A DNA stretch of 64,000 bases. It comes from Setophaga petechia. Taxonomy: Eukaryota > Chordata > Aves > Passeriformes > Parulidae. The position numbers were made by a program, and so were the translations under genes. The stretch is taken from assembly GCA_024362935.1 (NCBI GenBank), contig JANCRA010000123.1, positions 496,001 to 560,000 of the forward strand, given 5' to 3'. This document shows positions 2,774-61,200 of the stretch, one piece after another (within the stretch, counting starts at the first letter, position 1; each line of letters starts with the position of its first letter). The notes beneath the pieces were generated by a model, which searched no databases, had not been told where the DNA came from, and saw only the letters and a list, made by a program, of their open reading frames with translations.

Positions 2774-3665
2774 TTCCTGTCCCCCCAAACAGGAGGAGCT
2801 GGGGGATGTGTCTGCCCCAGAGGGCCACCACTGCATGGTTTAAAGGTCAGGTGGCTCCTTCTGGCCCTGTCCCAAGTGGCAGAGCCCTCTTGGGCTGCTC
2901 TTGTCACAGGGAGCAGGGACACGTTTGGGTTGGTGGTGGCTGCCCCTGCTCCCCCTGCCAGCAATGTTCTGCCTGGGAAATGGGCTGTGACTTAGCAGGC
3001 AGCTTTCTAATGACTCCTCAAACTGAGATTTTTATCCCTGTAAATGCAACTAGGTCTCAGTGTCCCTGATTAGTTTCTTGTGACAAATTCCATCTGCCTG
3101 CCCGGGAACAACAAAGACCTAAAAAAACCTGAGCACCAGCCATGCAGCTCCCATGCTGGGCTTTGTCATCACAGGAAATCACTTACAAAACAGGAAACTC
3201 TTCCTTGTTCCACTCAATTTCCTGGGACTATTTGCTGTGAAATGTCACCTTCTCAGATGAAGGAATGGGATTTATCACAATTAAGGGAGGCTTTGACATA
3301 TCCTTTTAAGTGAATTAAGGGTGCTGTAATTCTGAATTCGCCCAGGGCCTTGTTGTTGCAGTGGGAGTCCTCAGAACATCAGAAGCTTGCACATTTTTGG
3401 GCAGTTTTTGGTGTGATTTTGCTGTTCCTGGCAGTGTGGGCTGCCAAGGTTGACAATGAGTGGCTCATTGTCAGAATGCTGGCCCTGAACATTCCTCAGG
3501 AATGCAGAGAGAGGACTCTGGTGCTGGGTTGTTGATTGACTGAGCTGTTTCCGATGTGTTTGGGATTTTGAGTCACAATGCACCTGCGTCACTGCCCTCG
3601 TCAGTCACCGCTTTCCTGCTCTGAGATTTTGGCTGTGACACAGACACAGAGGAGCTGAACCTGCA

Positions 3666-4605
3666 CAGGGGTTCCGTGGCACAGGGGTTCCATGGCACAG
3701 GAGTTCTGTGGCACAGGGGTTCCGTGGCACAGGGGTTGTGTGGCACAGGGGTTCTGTGGCACAGGGGTTCCGTGGCACAGGGGTTCCATGGCACAGGGGT
3801 TGCATGGGACAAGGGTTGTATGGCACAGGGGTTCTGTGGCACAGGGGTTGTATGGCACAGGGTTTGTATGGCACAGGGGTTCCATGGCACAGGGGTTCTG
3901 TGGCACAGGGGTTCTGTGGCACAGGGGTTGTATGGCACAGGGTTTGTATGGCACAGGGGTTCCATGGCACAGGGGTTCTGTGGCACAGGGGTTGTATGGC
4001 ACAGGGGTTGTATGGCACAGGGGTTCCATGGCACAGGGGTTGTATGGCACAGGGGCTGTATGGCACAGGGATTCCATGGCACAGGGGTTCCATGGCACAG
4101 GGGTTGTATGGCACAGGGGCTGTATGGCACAGGGATTCCATGGCACAGGGGTTGTATGGCACATGGGTTGTATGGCACAGGGGTTGTATGGCACAGGGGT
4201 TGTATGGCACAGGGGTTCCGTGGCACAGGGGTTCTGTGGCACAGGGGTTCTGTGGCACAGGGGTTCTGTGGCACAGGGGTTGTATGGCACAGGGATTCCA
4301 TGGCACAGGGGTTCTGTGGCACAGGGGTTGTATGGCACAGTGGTTCTGTGGCACAGGGGTTGTATGGCACAGGGGTTCTGTGGCACAGGGGTTGTATGGC
4401 ACAGGGGTTCCATGGCACAGGGGTTCTGTGGCACAGGGGTTGTATGGCACAGGGGTTCCGTGGCACAGGGGTTGTATGGCACAGGGGTTCCATGGCACAG
4501 GGGTTCTGTGGCACAGGGGTTGTATGGCACAGGGGTTCTGTGGCACAGGGGTTGTATGGCACAGGGGTTCCATGGCACAGGGGTTCCATGGCACAGGGGC
4601 TCTGT
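3666..4605. repeat. 16-bp minisatellite, ~58 copies
   Basis: Unit GGCACAGGGGTTSYRT with few variants, almost without length change. All six reading frames are open across it because no frame of the unit makes a stop, and these frames are not genes. Confidence 0.95.
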
Positions 4606-6499: not shown

Positions 6500-6922
6500 T
6501 GTCACAGACATCTTTTATGAAAAATCTTTTCCTTAGGATTTTTCCTCCTGAGAGGCTGAGAGGCCTCAGGAACAAAATGTAACCAATGGTTATCTGCTGC
6601 TGTGGAATGCAACAGGTGCATCTGGGATTGGGCTCATGTGGTTGTTTCTAATTAATGGCCAATCACAGTCAGCTGGCGTGGACAGAGAGTCCGAGACAGA
6701 GCCTTTGTTATCATTATTTTCTATTCTATTCTATTCTATTCTATTCTATTCTATTCTATTCTATTCTATTCTATTCTAACCTTCTGATTAAATCCTTTCT
6801 TCTATTCTTTTAGTATAGTTTTAATGTAATATATATCATAAAATAATAAATCAGCCTTCTGAAACATGGAGTCAGATCCTCATCTCTTCCCTCATCCTCA
6901 GACCTCTGTGACCACTGTCACA
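6500..6922 (+). mobile_element. Solo LTR (family C) with perfect 6-bp target duplication
   Basis: TGTCACAGACATC to CCACTGTCACA, flanked by GAGAAG at 6494-6499 and 6923-6928. Carries a (TATTC)n run at about 6,719-6,778 and an AATAAA in CATAAAATAATAAATCAGCC. Confidence 0.93.
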
Positions 6923-7187
6923 GAGAAGGACCCAAACATGCTGAGTAAACAGCAGTGTTGTACCAGACAGTGTGATTAGAGAACTTTGAGGAGCACTTGA
7001 TCTCAAACACTCCATAAAATGATAATTTTTTAATGTTATAGTAGGGAAAACCTTCTCTACACAGCTGAAAGGAAGAAGGGAGGTGAGCCCCAGCTTCCTC
7101 AAGGGTGTGAGGCAATCCAGCACTGGGAAGTTGCTAAAATACACTGGGGCACTGCTTCAAGTTCAGGTTCTGACTGAGCTTTAATAT

Positions 7188-7564
7188 TGTGGTGGTGTTC
7201 ACAGGGGTCTTAGGATGAGGGAAGAGACGAGGAGCTGACTCCATGTTTCAGAAGGCTGATTTATTATTTTATGATATATATTACATTAAAACTATACTAA
7301 AAGAAGAAAGGATTTCATCAGAAGGCTGGCTAAGAAGAGAAAAAGAAAGAATGATAACAAAGGTTTGTGGCTCGGACAGAGAGCCCGAGCCAGCTGGGCT
7401 GTGATTGGCCATTAATTAGAAACAACCACATGAGACCAATCCCAGATGCACCTGTTGCATTCCACAGCAGCAGATAACCATTGGTTACATTTTGTTCCTG
7501 AGGCCTCTCAGCTTCTCAGGAGGAAAAATCCTAAGGAAAGGATTTTTCAGAAAATATGGCTACA
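7188..7564 (-). mobile_element. Solo LTR (family C), opposite orientation, perfect 6-bp target duplication
   Basis: TGTGGTGGTGTTCAC to ATGGCTACA, flanked by TAATAT at 7182-7187 and 7565-7570. It is inverted relative to the copy 265 bases to the left. It lacks the microsatellite of that copy. Confidence 0.92.
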
Positions 7565-10585: not shown

Positions 10586-11116
10586 TGTCACTAACATGTT
10601 TTATGAAAAATCCTTTTGCTAGGATTTTTGAGAAGCTGAGAGTCCTCAGAGATGAAATGTAAACAGTAATTATCTGCTGCTGTGGAATGGAACAGGCAGA
10701 TCTTTGGTCTCATGTGGTTGTTTTTAATTAATGGCCAATCACAGTGAGCTGGCTTGGACTCACTGGTCAGTCACAAGATTTTATTATCATGCCATTCTTT
10801 TCCTTGCTAGCCTTCTCATGAAATCCTTTCTCTCTTCTTTTAGCATAGTTTCAATATATCATTATAATGAGATGTGATATGAGATGTGATATGAGATGTG
10901 ATATGAGATGTGATATGAGATGTGATATGAGATGTGATATGAGATGTGATATGAGATGTGATATGAGATGTGATATGAGATGTGATATGAGATGTGATAT
11001 GAGATGTGATATGAGATGTGATATGAGATGTGATATGAGATATTCCAGCCTTCTGGAACATGGAGTCAGATCCTCATCTCTTCCCTCATCCTGGGACCCC
11101 TGTGAACACCAGCACA
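10586..11116 (+). mobile_element. Solo LTR (family C) with 12-bp array, inserted in a family G repeat
   Basis: TGTCACTAACATG to ACCAGCACA, flanked by CACTGT (10580-10585) and GACTGT (11117-11122). The family G sequence (as at 14.34-14.64 kb, inverted) resumes on both sides, which proves insertion. Inside is a run of about 14 GATATGAGATGT units at about 10,868-11,041. Confidence 0.9.
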
Positions 11117-37545: not shown

Positions 37546-37594
37546 GTGCCAGTGCCACAGGAGGGCCCTGTGCCTGTGCCAGGGGAGTCTCGGG

Positions 37595-38300
37595 GCTTTA
37601 GCTGGTCACAGTGACCCCGAGATGTGTTAGAAAGTCTCTTTTGCCAGAGTCAGAGCTCTTCAGTTCTCGGTCTCAAGATTGTTTATTGTGTCTTATCTAT
37701 AAAATTTTTTCTCCTGTTCAGCAGGACAGACACAGGCACTCTGCCTGCCTCGGGGGTGGTGTTATCTTTTTATACTAAAAACTACGTGTACAATATTTAC
37801 AATAACTTTCTAATACCTATCACCTATGTTAGACACTGAGTTTTTACTCTAAACCAATCTAAAAGTGCCAACATCACAGCAGAAGATGAAGGCCAAGAAG
37901 AAGAAGAAGAAGAAGAAGAAGAAGAAGAAGAAGAAGAAGAAGGAGAAGGAGGAGGAGGAGGACAGGACATGCTCAGATTCTTCCATTTTGCCTCCTGAAC
38001 CCCCATTCTAAAAGCCCCAAAAATCTATTTTTCACCCCGTGATAAATTCACTATCATTCTACTTAAACTGTTGTGGCTTGCAGATCTTCATATAAGGTTG
38101 GTAATTTTTTCCATGGGTCAAGAACAAAGGCACAGGGGTCTTGGGCTCTGTGCCAGGGTCTCTGAGCCCCCTGGCAGGGATTTGGGCAATCCAGGACAGC
38201 CAGAGGGATGTCCTGAATTCCAGCAGGGGAGGATGCTGAGCTCACAGCATCACTGCTCTCTGTCTCCAGCCCCGAGCGTGTCCCTTGTGTCCCAAACCTG
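37595..38300 (-). mobile_element. Family D LTR plus a short internal remnant, downstream of IDO
   Basis: The LTR part (about 37,595-38,045) includes TTTATACTAAAAACTACGTG, a GAA/GGA run at 37,897-37,962 and AATAAA on the minus strand at 37687-37682. The adjoining 38,060-38,300 resembles 50,640-50,830, as expected for retroviral sequence beside a 3' LTR; it is too decayed to read as protein. Confidence 0.65.
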
Positions 38301-38408
38301 CACAAGAGGGAAGGTGCTGCTGATGGGAGATTTTGCATCTTGGCTTGTTGCAGATGGAGCCTCTTGGCCTCCTGTGCCCACTTTGGGCAACCCTCAGGGT
38401 GGGTCAGG

Positions 38409-38788
38409 TGTCACTGACATATTTTCTGAAAAATATTCGCTAGGATTTTCTCCTGAGAAGCTGAGAGGCCTCAGAAGTGAAATGTAAGCAATAACTATCT
38501 GATGGCTGTGGAATGTGGTCTGGAGATGGTTTACCAACAGGTGCATCTTTGATTGGTCTCACGTAGATTGGTCATCAAGTAAAAACAGTGATGGTCCAGC
38601 TGTGTTGAGGCTCTGAGTCTGTCACGAGATTTTATTATCATTCTTTGCTAGCCTTCTGATATCTCCTTTCTCTTTCTTTCATATCGTTTTAGTATAGCAT
38701 TTTTAATATAATACATACCATAAAATAATAAATCAGCCTTCTGAAACACAGAGTCGAGATTCTCACCACACCCACAGACACTGCCACA
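38409..38788 (+). mobile_element. Solo LTR (family C, 6-bp target duplication) one base past the IDO stop
   Basis: Begins TGTCACTGACA and ends CTGCCACA, flanked on both sides by GTCAGG (38403-38408 and 38789-38794). Internal CATAAAATAATAAATCAGCC contains the LTR's own AATAAA. It is antisense to the IDO gene. A 6-bp duplication is usual for class II (ERVK-like) elements. Confidence 0.9.
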
Positions 38789-38789
38789 G

Positions 38790-49300
<10,511 letters not shown>

Positions 49301-49739: not shown

Positions 49740-50605
49740 GTGGGTAGGAGGTTCTCAGAATCTCTGCTGGTCACAGTGACTCTGAGATATGTACAAATCT
49801 CCTTTTCCCAGCCCAGCAGATGAAGGAGGAGTCAGGATTCCTCTGTTCTCATTCTCAAGGTTATTTATTATTTCTTATGCATAATATTTTTTCTCTTACC
49901 TGCTGAGTTCTGTCTGGCAGGTCGGGTTGAGGCACACTGACTGCCTTCAGGATGCTGTTAACGTTTTATACTAAAAACTACTGTACATTATTTACAATAC
50001 CTTCCCAATACTTGTCACAGACATGTTTTATGGAAAATCCTTTCCTTAGGATTTTTCCTCCTGAGAAGCTGAGAGGCCTCAGAAACAAAATGTAACCAAT
50101 GGTTATCTGCTGCTGTGGAATGCAACAGGTGCATCTGGGATTGGTCTCATGTGGTTGTTTTTAATTAATGGCCTAGCTGGCCTAATCACAGCCTAGCTGG
50201 CTCAGACTCTCTGTCCGAGCCACAAAACCTTTGTTATCATTCTTTCTTTTTCTATTCTTAGCTTAGCTAGCCTTCTGATGAAATCCTTTCTTCTATTCTT
50301 TTAGTATAGTTTTAATGTAATATATATCATAAAATAATAAATCAGGCTTCTGAAACATGGAGTCAGATCCTCATCTCTTCCCTCATCCTCAGACCCCTGT
50401 GAACACTGTCACAAATACCTATCACCTGTGTTAGACAGTGAGCTTCTACCTTAAATTAATCCAAAAGTGCCACCAACATAGCAGAAGATGGAGGCCAAGA
50501 AGAAGAAGAAGAAGGAGAGAGGCTGGACACACCCTGATTCCTCCATCTTGCCTCCCTAACCCCCATTCTAAAAACCCAAAAAATCTATTTTTCACCCCGT
50601 GACAA
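49740..50605 (-). mobile_element. Family D LTR between IDO and ADAM, split by a family C LTR
   Basis: Same blocks as at 37.6 kb (TTTATACTAAAAACTACTG, ACCTATCACCTGTGTTAGAC, TTTTTCACCCCGTGACAAAC). Interrupted at 50,007-50,419. A retroviral-remnant segment follows to about 50.83 kb. Confidence 0.75.
50013..50413 (+). mobile_element. Solo LTR (family C) inserted in a family D LTR
   Basis: TGTCACAGACATG to CACTGTCACA, flanked by AATACT (50007-50012) and AATACC (50414-50419). The surrounding family D sequence is uninterrupted in the copy at 37.6-38.06 kb. The microsatellite slot here is almost unexpanded (TTCTATTCTTAGC). Confidence 0.92.
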
Positions 50606-52264: not shown

Positions 52265-55200
52265 CTGTGGGGGGATCTGCAGTGGGGCCTTGGCCCTGCC
52301 TTGGCTCAGGGGGTGCCTCAGCCTGAGGTCACCTCTGCCCAAGGGTCAGCCCTGGGCAGTGCCCTCATGTCCCCATGGCAGTCACCCTATCCCCTCCTCT
52401 TCAGGGACGCCCCCAGCCCTTCCACACCCTGCCTCCCCCAGGCCCCCACAGCCATGGGGCCCCACTCACCCCTCGGTGCCCGGGGCCTGCTCCCCGTGGC
52501 GCTGGCCGGGCACCTGCTGCCGCCACAGCCCGAGCCCCAGGGCCGCCGTCAGGAACAGCAGGACGAGGCTGGAGCCCAGCACCAGCCAGGCCATCTCACC
52601 ATCCTCCAGTGCTCGATGCAGGCCTGGCGGGAGACAGCCTGGATGGGCACGGGCACTGCCAGCTGGGCACAGGCACTGCCAGCTGGGCACAGGCACTGCC
52701 AGCCCTGCTGGGCACTGCCAGCCCAGCCAGACACTGGCACACCAGCCCAGCCCTGCACAGGCACTGCCAGCCCAGCCTGTCCAGCCCAGCCGGGCCCTGC
52801 CCGTGCCATCCCATGGTGCCCACTCACCTCCCTCTGTGAACTGCAGCCCGCTGTCCCTGCTGCCCCCATGGCGTGACCCCCTAAACTGGCAGTCGGGGGG
52901 CTGCCAGCCCATGTTGCAGTGGCAGTTGCCCTTGTTGTTGCACACCTGCAGGGCCAGGGAGGGGTACAGGTGTGCAGGGGGCTGGCACAGCCTGCCCCCC
53001 CAGCCCAGCACCCCTGGGACTCACCCCGTGGCCGTGGCACTTTGTTTTGCTGTCACAGATGGGTCCCAGCACCGACACTGGCTGGCATGTGCCATTCATA
53101 CACACCTGGGAAAAACCATGGCAGCTCCAGCCCAGCACTGCCTCACCCATACAGCACTCAGCACATCAGGCTGTGGCCCTGGGCCACAGGGAAATGAAAA
53201 CACACTATTAAAAAAAAAATTAAAAATAAAGAAGCCACAGTTCTGCCCTGAGGCCAGGTCATTTTAGTTCTCACACCCCACCAAGTGTGAGCACTATAAA
53301 AATGAGTTTTTGTAGTGTTTTTAAATATCAAGCACACCGCTGCAAGCAATGAATGTTTTGATGATCTTGTTAATACTCACAGTTTCTATTTGTCATTCTG
53401 GATGATTACAGAATATTTCCTTACCCTTCCAGAGCCACACTTTGTCCCTGGAGTGACCAGAAGGGGATCCAGCCATGTGGACACATTCAGGTAGTTCAGA
53501 GTCACACAGATGTGATGCTTCACCCGGGCGTACATCACAGCAGTGGCAGGTGCTAAGAAGGGCTTGTGGGATGGGTATGTGCAGACTAACTTCCCACACC
53601 TGAGATCCCTGGAAAGCCAATTTGCACAGGATGTGTATCAAACATACACAGACACGTGGGCCTGTTCTTCAGCACAGGCCACAGCCAGCATCTGAGGTCA
53701 CCATTTGTGGTATTTACAGGGGTCCCCAGGACGAGGTGAGAGATGAGTGAATCCATGTTCTTGGAAGGCTGATTTACTATTCTATTCTATTCTATTCTAT
53801 TCTATTCTATTCTATTCTATTCTATTCTATTCTATTCTATTCTATTCTATTCTATTCTATTCTATTCCATTCCATTCCATTCCATTCCATTCCATCCCAT
53901 CCCATTCCATTCCATTCCATTATATTATTATAGAATGCTATACTAAAACTATACTAAAGAGTACAGAAAGGATACAGACAGAAAGATTAACAAGAATGAT
54001 AATGAAAAACTCATGACTGACTCCTCAGAGTCCAACATAGCTGATGGTGATTGGTCATTTAGTAAAAACAATTCACATGAACCCAATCACCTGTTGGTAA
54101 ACAGTCTCCAGCCACATTCCAAAGCAGTAAAACAGGGGGAAGCAAATGAGAGAATATGGTTTTCTCTCTGAGGCTTCTCATCTTCCCAGGAGAAGAAATC
54201 CTGGTGAAGGGATTTTTTCAGAAAATGTGACAGTGACACAGACACACACAGACACTGCCTGATGAACACTGGGACATTGAGCAGCACAGTCTGCTGAGAA
54301 AACATCAGCAGGACTGGGAGGGTCTGTGACACAAGAAGAGACACCATACCGAGGAGAACACACACAGGTATTACTGCTTCACAAATCTCACCATAAACTG
54401 GAGTTCTTGCCACTTCTCTTGACTGTCCAACCCCAATGAAAGCTGGATTTTATCAGATCCAGAGCCCCCTGGGCAGCATACCTCCACATACAGTTCTGGT
54501 ACTTGTGGTTGGACTTGAAGCCGCAGTGCCCGAACCTGTCCCGCTGCCCGTTGATCTCCTCGTAGCACATCACGGGGGCGTTCCTGGAGTCTGCAAGTTC
54601 AGCAAGAATATTTGTTACTCTGCTAGATAATATGTATAAATTCCTGCTGAGTAATCTCTCTGAATGAAAATCCTGGCATACCAAAGGAGGGTTCCAGGAA
54701 ATTCCTTCTGATGAGATTACAGCGATGTGCACCAAAATCCCAGCATGAATATTCATCTCCAGAAGTGTTGATTCCAGAGGATTATTCATGTGACCAAACC
54801 CCAGCAACATGCATTTGATATGCATCATTGATAAGATAAATATGTGTCTCCTAGCCTGAATATTCATCTCCAGAAATGTGGATTCCCGAGGATTATTCAT
54901 CTGACCAAACCCCAGCAATATGCATTCATCATCAATAAGATAAATCAGTGTCTCCTAGAATGTATATTGCAGGAGATTTTCTGCAAAATCCCAGCCTGAA
55001 TATTCATCTCCAGAAATGTTGATTCCAGAGGATTATTCATCTGGCCAAACCCCAGCAATATGGGGTTATCATTGATAAGATAAATCTTATCAATGATAAG
55101 ATAAATCATTGATAAGATAAATCTGTGTTTCCTAGAATGTATATTGCAGGAGATTTTCTAACAAAGTGAATTGTTTGCCATTTTCAGGAAACTCTCAGCA

Positions 55201-58200
55201 AGAGCAGCAGCAAGAAAGGAAAAATTACATGAATATGCTTAAAAGATAAAATCAACAGTAAGAAAGCAAGAAACCCTTCCCAGCAACCCTAGGAGTTTGG
55301 AAATATATAAAAAAGACTTTGTGAGAGCTGTCTCTCCATGATCTACAGAGGAGTGGAGCCCTAGTGGTCCCCCATCTCACCTGATGCTTTTAGCCTGGTT
55401 CAGCACTGACCTATCTTTCCTTGTGGCCTTTTTTATGACTGTATTTTAATTATTGAAAACATTTTCCTTATTAATCAAATTAACTAATTCATTTATAACA
55501 GTACCACTAAAAGGAACACAAAGGAACATATTCTGCTATCTAACAACTTCATTTTTCATTATTTAATTAGAGAAAACACACCTATCCCTGCCCAAACCCT
55601 CAGCAGTCCTGAACCTCAGGAATCAGCAGGGGAAGTTCTCTAATTGAGTTTGCCCGCATAAAATAACAATGGAAAGAACAAAAAGCAAATTATCTGTGAA
55701 GCACTGGGGGAACTCTGTGCTTCCAACCAGAGCTCGAAACGCTTTCCTAGAGCTGTGCCTTCCCTCCAGGTGCCCCACTCTGCTGAGCTGGGTGCACTGA
55801 GGAGCACAGGCAGGTGATGCTGTGGCCACCCCAGCCCCTGAGCAGCGCCAGTGCCACCAGCACAGCCCGTTACCTGTCCCGTAGAGCCTCCTGCACTGCA
55901 GGTCCGGGGACTGGCAGCGTCCCTGGTAGCAGTAGCCGGTGCCACGCCAGCACTCCTGCCCGTCCTGCACGTACACATCGGGCGGGCAGGAGGCGGAGGA
56001 GCCGCTGCAGAACTCGGGCAGGTCACACTGGGCATCGGCGGCCGGGCGGCACAGCGTGTTCCTCCACTTGAACTGCGGAGAAGGAGGAGCTCTGCAGCCT
56101 CCCGAGCCCACCAGGCTGAGCAGCAGGAGCCCTGCAGCCTCCCTGACCTGCTAGCCTGAGCAGGAGGGGCTCTGCAGCCCCCTCACCTGCCAGCGTGAGC
56201 AGCAGGAGCTCTGCCAGCCTAGGCAGGAGGAGCTCTGCAGCCCCCCATGTCCCCCAGCCTGAGCAGGAGGAGCTCTGCAGCCCCCCATGTCCCCCAGCCT
56301 AGGCAGCAGGAGCTCTACAGCCCCCCAGGTTTCCCAGGCCGAGCAGCAGGAGCCCTGCAGCCTCCCAGGCTGAGCAGGAGGAGCTTCACAGCCCCCCACG
56401 TCCCCCAGCCTGAGCAGGAGGGGTTCTGCAGCCCCCCATATCTCCCAGCCTGAGCAGCAGGAGCTCTGCAGCCCCCCAGGTCTCCCAGGCTGAGCCCCCT
56501 CTGCCCAAGCCCCCCCCCCCTTGAGGCACTCAGGTGTGACAGGTGAGTGACACTGCCTGGGACAGTCCCCAGGTAATATTCCCCCCAGGGGCTCCCAAGA
56601 GCTGAGACTGCAAGCAAACCCCAGGAACCTTTCCCACTGCACAGCAGGAAGGTTGGCTCTATCTCTCAGCATGGGAATATGCCATTTGTCCAAAAATAGA
56701 CAATGATTTTGTTATAGTTATAAAAATCTGCCTTACCTGACAATTTCTACAACATAATCCGGAGGCACATCTTGCTCTTGGCTTCAGTCTACATCTTGGA
56801 GTGCAACACCTGTCCTTCTGGCATTCCTGTGGACACATGGCAAACCCACATTATTTTATTTTGCTGTCCCCCCGAGCTTCTCCTCCTCCTCTCCCCATAT
56901 TACGTGGGCAATATCCAGCAGAACAAACGGGCAAAGCTGCCACACAGAAACAATCCCCAACCCAACACAGCCCTCCCTGGGCTGCTCCCCGTGTGGGAAT
57001 CCATAAAATCAGAGGGTTTTGAGAAAGCTGCAAAAGGCAGAGACAGCAGAACTGTGACTAGAGCTGAGCAGTGGCCATGAGATTGGTCAGCAGAAAAATT
57101 ACGTAAGAAGTAGAAAAGCAAGGATAAATAAAACAATGGTCTGTGTATTAATGCTTGGCTAGAATAATTCTCTAAGCTGCAGAAAAGTTTATCTAGTGAG
57201 ATATTAGGAAGTTCTAAGCTTAATAATGGAGCTCTGTGCATTGTGTTTTAAGGCTTACAAGCAGGTATTGTATTTGAAATAAGCAAGCATTGTTTAACCA
57301 AAGGTACCTGTGCTTATAGTGATTGGATGGAACTACTGTCAATGTGCTTTTGCTTTGTGGGATTGATCAAAAGAGTTTTAAAGTGAGTTGTAACATTAAG
57401 TTCTTTGTCTGCTGCCTGGGATTTGTGCTTGGTGGCATCTTCCCATTGTCACAACCATGGAATGAGGCTGATGCTGAAAAATCAAACAGCTCAAGGCACG
57501 TTCCCAGCATTCCCATCCCGTTTGTGATCTGTACACAGCCCCTGGCTGGCAATACCCTGCTGGGTACACTGGGGCTGTGTCCAAAGGTTGGTGACTCCAC
57601 AGGCACTGGGAGCACAAAGGCAGGGCTGTGCCCACCAGGGCTGTGCCCCTCTGGGCTGTGCCCACCAGCACTGTGCTCACCTAGGCTGTGCCCACCTGTG
57701 CTATGCCCACCACCGCTGTGCCCACCAGCACTGTGCCCACCTAGGCTGAGCCCACCTGGGCTGTGCCCACCAGGACCGTGCCCACCACCGCTGTGCCCCC
57801 TGGGCTGTGCCCACCAGGACTGAGCCCCCCTGAGCTGTGTCCACCTGGGCTGTGCCCATTCTGGGCTGTGCCCACCAGGACTGTGCCCCCCTGGGCTGTG
57901 CCCACCAGGACTGTGCCCCCCAGGGCTGTGCCCCCCTGGGCTGTGCCCACCTGGGCCGTGCCACAGTCGCACTGCTCCCCCGGCTCCACCACGCGGTTGC
58001 CGCAGACGGCGCCGCTCTGCCGGGACTGGCGGCTCAGCCGGGGGCTGCTGAAGAGGCAATCCCCTCTGCCCTGCTTCAGGAAGGTCTCAAAGTCCCTGAT
58101 GCTGCAGTTACTGAAGGCTTTCGCCCCACTGAGATGTCTAAAATAAAGCAATGATCAGGTTATACATTACACAAAGCAATGATCAGGTTATACTTTACAC

Positions 58201-61200
58201 ATTCACTGCCCCTCTCTCTCCCCCAAGCTCTGTGCAAGTCAAGGGCTCACCCAGACACTGACAGCCCCCCAGGGTCTATTAATTCACCTGATCTACAGCT
58301 CATTATTAACAGAGATTGGAAAACATCCTGAAGTACCTTCATTTTAGAGAGCAAAGGTCTCCTTTGTCAAATTAAGTGCTAAATTGCTATTTAATGAATT
58401 CTTTTTTTCTTCTTAGAGGAAAAAAAGCAGGGATTTCTTCATTGAAATAATGATATTGAACTGAAATAACTGGTGTTCAGGCATTGGAATTGCTGCTCAG
58501 GGAGGTGGTGCAGTCCCCATCCCTGGAGGAGTTCAAGAAATCACTGACACAGCACTCAGTGTTCTGGTCCAGTTGACAAGGTGGTGATTGGTCAAAGGTT
58601 GGACTCCAAGCTCCTGGAGGCCCTTTCCAGCCTGAGTGATTCCATTTTTGCAGTGGAATGACAGTGCTGGAGGACACCTCTGACAAGGGGACACCGTGCA
58701 GCCACCCCTGTGCCCCCTTCACGTGCCCCAGCCCCTGGGGCAGACTCACAGCGCCGCAGGGCTCATGGTGCAGACCCGTCCAGGGCAGCTGCAGCCTCGG
58801 GGGCTGTCGGGGCTCATGCCCAGGCTCTGGCCCAGCACCTGTGCCAGCAGCACGGAGAAGGACTCCAGGGTCACGTTCCCGTGGTACTGGAGGGAGGAGA
58901 GAGGGGAGCTGCCAGAGCTGAGCGTTCCTTGCAGGGATACAGATCCTCCCACGAGCTCCATCCACCCCTGCTCCTGCTGCCCAGGCTGCTGAGGGACAGG
59001 CACAGGACAGGGGGGACCATACCAGGGCCACGGTGGCAGCAGCATCTCTCTGACATGCCCCTCCTGGAGCCGCTGCACCCACGAGGGCTCCTTGGTGCCT
59101 GTACCTGTGACAGAGCTGGGGTCACTGCTGTGGTCAGTGGGGGATGATGGCTCTGTACAGCCCAAGTCCCCTTGGTGTCCCTGTTTGCTGTCCCCAGGGG
59201 AGCTGGGCAGGGTCTGGTGCCTGGTGCTGGCAGGGACTGGGGGGTGACAAGGGATGGACAGCACCATTGCAGCTGCTGCATCACTTGGAAGAAATACTTG
59301 AAGAATATTAAGGACTTAATAAAAATGGATTTTTTTTTAAAAGCATTTTTTGTCAGTTTCAATTCACATTGGTTTGACTGATTGCTACCACATAACTTTT
59401 AACACTCATGAACCTTTATCTTACCCTAAGAGAGAAGCAATGTTGTGAGCCTGTGGCTCCAGGGACAACTGTTTCCACTGTAAAAATCGCTGTAGAAGGT
59501 CATCTGTGTCCCCTGCTGTTGATATTTTATCCCCCTCTGCCCACAGCTCCAGGGAGGACAGCACAATGGTGACATTAAGGGGATTGAACATCTGAAAGAA
59601 TAAGAGAAGAAACATCTGCTCTCACACCTTCCCTTCATGCAGAGCCACCACTCTGCACACAGTAAACACAGGGGAAAAGTAAATTGCTGCTGTCAGTGCC
59701 TCAATGACATCTGTAGCCAAAAAGAATGAACACACCTAAAGAATAAAGAGATACAGCAAGAGGCCTGAGCCAAATTTCAATAACTTCATAAGTGTTAGGG
59801 GCTTTGGAAATAACTTCTCATTGCACAAGTGAACCATAAGACCAGCAGTGGAGTAAAGAACAGGACTGGAAGTTGGTTACAAGTCCCTGAGAGTAAGCAG
59901 GTGAATTGGATCAGTGAGATCAGGGGAGAGGGAAGCAACCCAGGAGTCCTCAAAATGCAGGGTTTGGCTGCCCTGAGGCAAACTGCCTGTGTTTCTGTAC
60001 ATCTGCATGAGACATGGCCATCACACAGGGCAAGATGTTCTTCTGTGGCATGTCCAGAGGAAAAACCTTCTCAGGAAACACAGAATTCTTTACATAACAT
60101 CCTCCTAAACCTAAAAGCAGCTAGAAAAGAGGTGGCCACTGCTAACACCAACATCCCCCTCATCCCCCATCTCACTGCAGTACAAACCAGACTTAAGAAC
60201 TCACATTGTTGATTAAATTGAAGGCCTGGATTATGTTCTGTGTCGCAGCATTTGGGTCTGATCCCATATAGTTGTACTGAAAAACAACCCAAGAGGACAC
60301 AAGGGCAGACAAGGTGCTTACCATGTCAGTGTTGGAACACTGAAATGATTCCCAACACTGAGCCATGGAGCTACAAATTCATGTTCCTTATTTCCTACAA
60401 AATCCACAGCATGAGGAACTTTTCAAAACAGAAAACAAATCCATGTAAAAGCTGGGAAATTTACCATTTCCATGCTCACAGAAGTCAGGCAAAGAGAAGG
60501 AAAAAGTGGCTGGCATGGACTTACCAAAGCCTTGTCCAAAACCACGTACACTGTGAGGTATTTGGGAGATTGTGCAGAGGCCGAGAGGGGCTGAAAGAGA
60601 AAATGGGCTTCAAAGTACAGATTCTGCATTCTCTGCTCCCCTCACTGTTGCTGCTGGCTGTGCTTTTCAAAGCTTGTGTCCAAGTGTCTGGCCAAAGACA
60701 CACAGAAGACCTTCCAGCAGAAGCAGGTCCCTCCTCACAGCACAGGGACAGCAGCAGCACTGTGAGAACAGCAGCACTCACCTCATCATCCCTGGGGGCC
60801 TCGTCCAGCACGTCCCAGGCTGCCAGCCCAGCCTGCCCTGCCTCGGGGGGGCTGTGGGCAGGGGGGGCTGCTGCCATCTGCTCCTCACCCACTCGGAACA
60901 GCACGTGCTGGAAGGCAGGGGAGTAGCCCAGGGGCTGGATCCTGTAGCTCACGTTCTCAAACTGCAGCAAACCCCTGCCAGGGCACCAGCACTGCCCACT
61001 TGCTGCTGGGCACTGGCACAGCTGCCCCAGCTGTTTGTTCTGCAGGCCAGGGGCAGCACAGGGGTAGGGCTGGTGCTGTACCTGAGCCCTGAGCAGGTGT
61101 TGAGGGTCACTGCTGAGCTGGGGAAGCCATCGATGTAGCCCCAGTAGTGGCAGCCTCCCTGTGACATGACAGAGGACAGGGAGCTCTTCCATGGCTGGGC

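Follow-up and report, generated by a model that had tools for sequence, protein, structure and literature searches.

Directly behind the stop codon of IDO2 in Setophaga petechia lies a solo LTR, here called LTR-A, which very probably inserted at this position while the ancestral stop was preserved within the duplicated target site. The insertion changed no protein sequence and set the old 3' flank apart from the coding exon. All positions refer to the window, i.e. the whole stretch of 64,000 nucleotides that was analysed. The features at the insertion site are the following:

38403..38408, no strand: left target-site duplication GTCAGG, read from the sequence
38409..38788, plus strand in its sense direction and thus antisense to IDO2: LTR-A, solo LTR of 380 bp, recognized by its TG...CA ends, its repeat match and the flanking duplication
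38789..38794, no strand: right target-site duplication GTCAGG, read from the sequence and holding the IDO2 stop codon TGA (38792-38790, minus strand)
38790..39157, minus strand: last IDO2 exon including the stop codon, the protein of which matches the genome once only

The solo LTR and its target site

The boundaries given for the LTR in a first-pass annotation, which had placed it between two GTCAGG copies, are exact base for base. The sequence also agrees with the further claim that the IDO2 TGA resides inside the right-hand copy and was preserved in this way, and the 3' UTR indeed opens with antisense LTR sequence after just one base (C, the last of the duplication). Both features by which we recognize a solo LTR, TG...CA ends and a single LTR situated directly between short target duplications, are present. 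When the two flanks were joined over one GTCAGG and the resulting 106 bases were compared with the bird's own genome, the query matched in two halves only (positions 1-56 and 51-106), which overlap in the six GTCAGG bases, and this is the pattern predicted by a target duplication. Neither an LTR-free allele nor a second IDO2 copy was found that could serve as an empty site within the genome, as the joined flanks gave these two halves only and the search with the last-exon protein scored two candidates, of which one matched.

It might be argued that the GTCAGG match arose by chance and that the true right end of LTR-A lies elsewhere. The last 23 bp of LTR-A diverge from its family, and 33 of the 39 other scored matches end at LTR position 357 of 380, just as such a reading would have it. 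LTR-A nevertheless terminates in CCACA, the usual terminus of the family, with the GTCAGG match directly outside; two further family copies (L003 and L004) are likewise shortened near the same end, and a rough probability for such a match, by our own arithmetic, is ~0.001. At its other end LTR-A starts with TG at the customary place for the family. In view of the family-like ends, and because the joined flanks matched as two halves, a chance duplication of 6 bp is considered unlikely, and we regard a displaced right end as very improbable.

A genuine insertion at the stop would have come about in a few steps. An endogenous retrovirus very probably integrated antisense to IDO2 at six target bases that included the stop codon, and staggered integration followed by repair would have doubled these six bases, leaving TGA plus one base on the coding side. 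Later recombination between the two LTRs would then have produced the solo form, as is suggested by the presence of just one LTR between the two GTCAGG copies. The protein stayed as it was, the new 3' UTR opens with antisense LTR sequence, and the old proximal flank persists as a remnant of 171 bp in front of a second LTR-like repeat, LTR-B, that is described below.

That the insertion had been tolerated only because of the duplication, as was claimed in the first-pass annotation, finds no support. Joined without the duplication, the reading frame would run ...MIR-VWQCLWVW-stop, so that one residue and the stop would be lost and eight residues gained at the very C-terminus. As so few C-terminal residues would change, the duplication preserves the stop without being required to account for tolerance. 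The same annotation had called such an event rare, and this holds for one given locus but not genome-wide. With uniform insertion, an assumed number of 16,000 genes and the requirement that the duplication covers the whole stop, 0.26 stop-covering insertions are expected at 4972 copies (a number of first-look candidates that are unconfirmed as copies) and ~5 at an assumed 100,000 LTR copies. LTR-A at the IDO2 stop is therefore unusual in its position and ordinary in its kind, i.e. a solo LTR in a 3' UTR with the stop kept.

The IDO2 gene and the age of its stop codon

As judged from its sequence, the gene that ends at the insertion site is a complete, single-copy IDO2:

38790..49300, minus strand: IDO2 coding gene with ten exons, 412 aa, GT-AG introns and an intact reading frame
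49300-49199, 47832-47737, 46544-46425, 46257-46139 and 45559-45545, minus strand: the first five IDO2 exons, the last of these being a microexon
44677-44578, 44396-44279, 44158-44107, 41451-41303 and 39157-38790, minus strand: the IDO2 exons that follow the microexon

The intact frame comprises 407 aa, to which the 15-nt microexon adds the residues that bring it to 412, and the TGA closes the last exon. The Pfam IDO domain PF01231 is found at residues 17-407 of 412 with an E-value of 1.5e-127 and 426 bits. Assignment to IDO2 and not to IDO1 is indicated by a search of solved chains with the last exon, in which both IDO2 sequences reached 112 bits while all 23 IDO1 sequences remained at or below 90.5 bits. 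In addition, the best database names for the protein are IDO2, with up to 95% identity among the best 120 of 1007 relatives. The last exon agrees with that of Melospiza georgiana in 118 of 122 residues and with those of two Darwin's finches, Nesospiza and Calcarius in 110 to 112 of 122 (five relatives compared). The protein of Camarhynchus parvulus and Geospiza fortis is the same avian IDO2 with the same C-terminus and 95% identity, and the C-terminus is also shared with Melospiza georgiana, a comparison made at the level of the protein.

The stop codon coincides exactly with the insertion point and it is thus conceivable that LTR-A truncated a once longer IDO2 and that the present stop is a result of the insertion. 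The C-termini of the relatives speak against this. We compared the best 120 of 1007 relatives found and measured the distance to the protein end from the start of the GTGG motif. In 114 of these 120 the protein ends exactly 25 residues from that start, and a 115th, P0064, has the same end although a single residue of its anchor motif is exchanged (GTEG). The exceptions are P0017, which is one residue shorter, P0088, which is two residues shorter, and P0087, which is two residues longer, while P0074 and P0120 are truncated models and uninformative on the C-terminus. The C-terminus shared by 115 of 120 relatives indicates that LTR-A neither shortened nor lengthened the IDO2 protein, and the stop position is ancestral. 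Truncation by LTR-A is rejected on account of these conserved C-termini and its probability is close to nil. A longer IDO frame past this point, which would contradict the account given in the first-pass annotation, occurs among the best 120 of 1007 just in P0087 (Aptenodytes forsteri), by the two residues mentioned, with the two truncated models again uninformative.

The gene contains some peculiar sequence elements. Among 16 relatives that were fetched, six have database models that lack the microexon at 45545-45559 (15 nt) and show G-NLDT in place of GPLEIENLDT or GPLEMENLDP; this absence is probably an annotation gap. The donor site of exon 2 falls within a minisatellite with a 28-bp unit (47556-47742). 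Its motif ACCAG|GTATGG is thereby repeated on the minus strand as five tandem copies, along with two GTGTGG variants. The intron between exons 8 and 9 harbors a tandem array (41617-42889) with units of 188 to 388 bp. By eye, sequence resembling this array is present in the predicted proteins of Melospiza and Lamprotornis, and these intron-like stretches are probably due to misannotation.

LTR-A and its relatives in the genome

When the 380 bp of LTR-A were used for a search of the 1.22-Gb assembly, 4972 first-look candidates were obtained, unconfirmed as copies, and 40 of these were scored. All 40, LTR-A included, matched, pointing at a repeat with many copies; among these 40 the best match other than LTR-A itself shows 84% identity. 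Nineteen other family copies were fetched with flanks of 1.5 kb. In eight of them a single TG...CA LTR is immediately bordered by an exact 6-bp duplication, and none was seen by this exact test at the remaining 11, with near matches left uncounted. A target duplication of 6 bp, a mark of class II (ERVK) elements, is thus found at LTR-A and in exact form at eight of 19 other copies. By this rule, and from the duplication length alone, LTR-A would be a class II (ERVK-like) LTR. It shares TG...CA ends, the 6-bp duplication, high copy number and the solo form with songbird class II (ERVK-like) solo LTRs. More diverged relatives of LTR-A account for ten further matches in the window, of which three lie inside IDO2 introns, with such relatives at 40400-40746, 40853-41036, 45048-45334, 50013-50373, 53919-54238, 6500-7558 and 10586-10863.

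In a star fit of 20 copies (LTR-A plus the 19 others, LTR positions 1-357) the longest branch is that of LTR-A, with 0.108 substitutions per site, a value that is biased because the copies were chosen as those nearest to LTR-A, and from which we draw no date. At a slow rate near 0.003 this branch would correspond to ~36 My. The faster rate used for crow in PMC7341801, 0.0158 per site per My, would yield ~7 My. The same study describes corCorLTRK1b near crow NDP, likewise a songbird ERVK LTR element near a host gene. That element is a young insertion of 2.25 kb, located 20 kb upstream and accompanied by expression data (PMC7341801), whereas LTR-A is a solo LTR at a stop codon that is known here from sequence. 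Among the matches listed in a literature search for LTRs situated at stop codons or within the 3' ends of bird genes, no title was identifiable as the IDO2 locus.

Probable transcript ends and the second LTR-like repeat

The stop codon is followed by two repeats in opposite orientation. The following features bear on the possible transcript ends:

38702..38707, minus strand: ATTAAA on the antisense strand of LTR-A, +83 nt from the stop, with poor downstream context (hexamer map)
38631..38636, minus strand: AATAAA on the antisense strand of LTR-A, +154 nt from the stop (hexamer map)
38232..38402, minus strand: remnant of the former IDO2 3' flank, 171 bp, between LTR-A and LTR-B
38226..38231, no strand: right copy, GGGGAG, of a putative LTR-B target duplication (sequence)
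37588..38225, minus strand: LTR-B, a second LTR-like repeat, sense to IDO2, delimited by repeat search and by GGGGAG on both sides
37582..37587, no strand: left copy, GGGGAG, of the putative LTR-B target duplication (sequence)

The sense-oriented LTR-B with its GGGGAG flanks, lying behind a 171-bp remnant in which none of eight poly(A) hexamers is present, is new relative to the first-pass annotation. A query covering 38000-38402 gave 3114 candidates, 40 of which were scored and all matched, so LTR-B is a high-copy repeat. It carries TATAAA (first base 37774) followed by AATAAA (37687-37682), an LTR-like order, and among three other aligned copies TATAAA is kept in all and AATAAA in two. By eye, the duplication matches of the three other copies are at best partial and an exact one is seen only here, which renders the ends of LTR-B and its nature as an LTR less sure.

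Within 2.6 kb past the stop we found three AATAAA or ATTAAA hexamers only, those at +83 and +154 in LTR-A and one at +1103 in LTR-B. The weaker variants AGTAAA (+942) and TATAAA (+1016) both fall within LTR-B as well, and the next distal hexamers are ATTAAA at +2647 and AATAAA at +3534. By a crude, home-made score of downstream GU/U content, ranked against 147 hexamers of the window, the +154 site stands at the 82nd percentile, the +83 site at the 1st and the +1103 site at the 6th. As a first guess, the IDO2 poly(A) signal would most plausibly be the antisense hexamer at +154. An antisense AATAAA is also present in 14 of the 19 other family copies, and its position is roughly the same in 13 of these.

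Since every AATAAA and ATTAAA in the first 2.6 kb is part of an LTR, the IDO2 mRNA probably ends at an LTR-supplied site, a reading to which we give moderate preference. The transcript would then be cleaved behind the antisense AATAAA at +154 or, if this were skipped, behind the sense AATAAA of LTR-B at +1103. By the hexamer map, the suggestion in the first-pass annotation that poly(A) choice may be affected appears strengthened. It is already known that TEs can contribute 3' UTRs and poly(A) sites. In human genes TEs including LTRs supply termination sites, and in the part of that work considered here such sites are mostly sense-oriented and stronger in this orientation, a bias that speaks for LTR-B and against LTR-A (PMC3517506). 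The IDO2 locus resembles these cases in that LTR sequence in a gene offers poly(A) signals; it differs from those described there in that the nearest signal is antisense and predicted and in that the place directly after a stop codon is unusual (PMC3517506).

The insertion could also be functionally silent if polyadenylation took place at a distal site past LTR-A and LTR-B, the repeats being carried without effect in a long 3' UTR. More hexamers indeed follow at +2647 and beyond, and in the human data, again as far as the part considered goes, antisense LTRs have the tolerated orientation in genes and terminate less often (PMC3517506). Such a silent state is nonetheless made doubtful by the AATAAA with good downstream context at +154 and by the lack of any AATAAA or ATTAAA outside LTR sequence in the first 2.6 kb. 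A more far-reaching version of the LTR-supplied end, for which we can offer only tentative backing, is that the two opposite LTRs have taken over the proximal 3' end altogether, so that the poly(A) sites and almost the entire 3' UTR would be retroviral, with a switch between a very short mRNA ended by LTR-A and a long one ended by LTR-B.

The sense strand of LTR-A points toward the last IDO2 exon, and it might act as a promoter from which an antisense transcript enters this exon and represses IDO2. This is quite unlikely, as the sense AATAAA of LTR-A itself, near its 3' end on the plus strand, would tend to halt such a transcript.

Returning to LTR-supplied transcript ends, the locus constitutes a natural experiment in which the coding sequence of IDO2, an immune-linked tryptophan-degrading enzyme, is untouched up to the stop while its proximal 3' UTR has been swapped for LTR sequence. 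Should there be LTR-free relatives, the influence of this swap could be singled out by a comparison of 3' ends and mRNA levels of IDO2.

Two further regions of the window deserve mention. A minisatellite at 3663-4603 consists of ~59 copies of a 16-bp unit and is open in several frames, so that the long ORFs there are no evidence of genes. Beyond the 5' end of IDO2, six minus-strand ORFs were subjected to a domain search, which gave no match for two of them. The other four, located within 54391-59267, have ADAM-type domain matches (reprolysin twice, ADAM cysteine-rich twice, disintegrin once), with the disintegrin and one of the ADAM cysteine-rich matches just under the cut-offs. By these domain matches, the predicted exons in this region belong to an ADAM-type gene on the minus strand.
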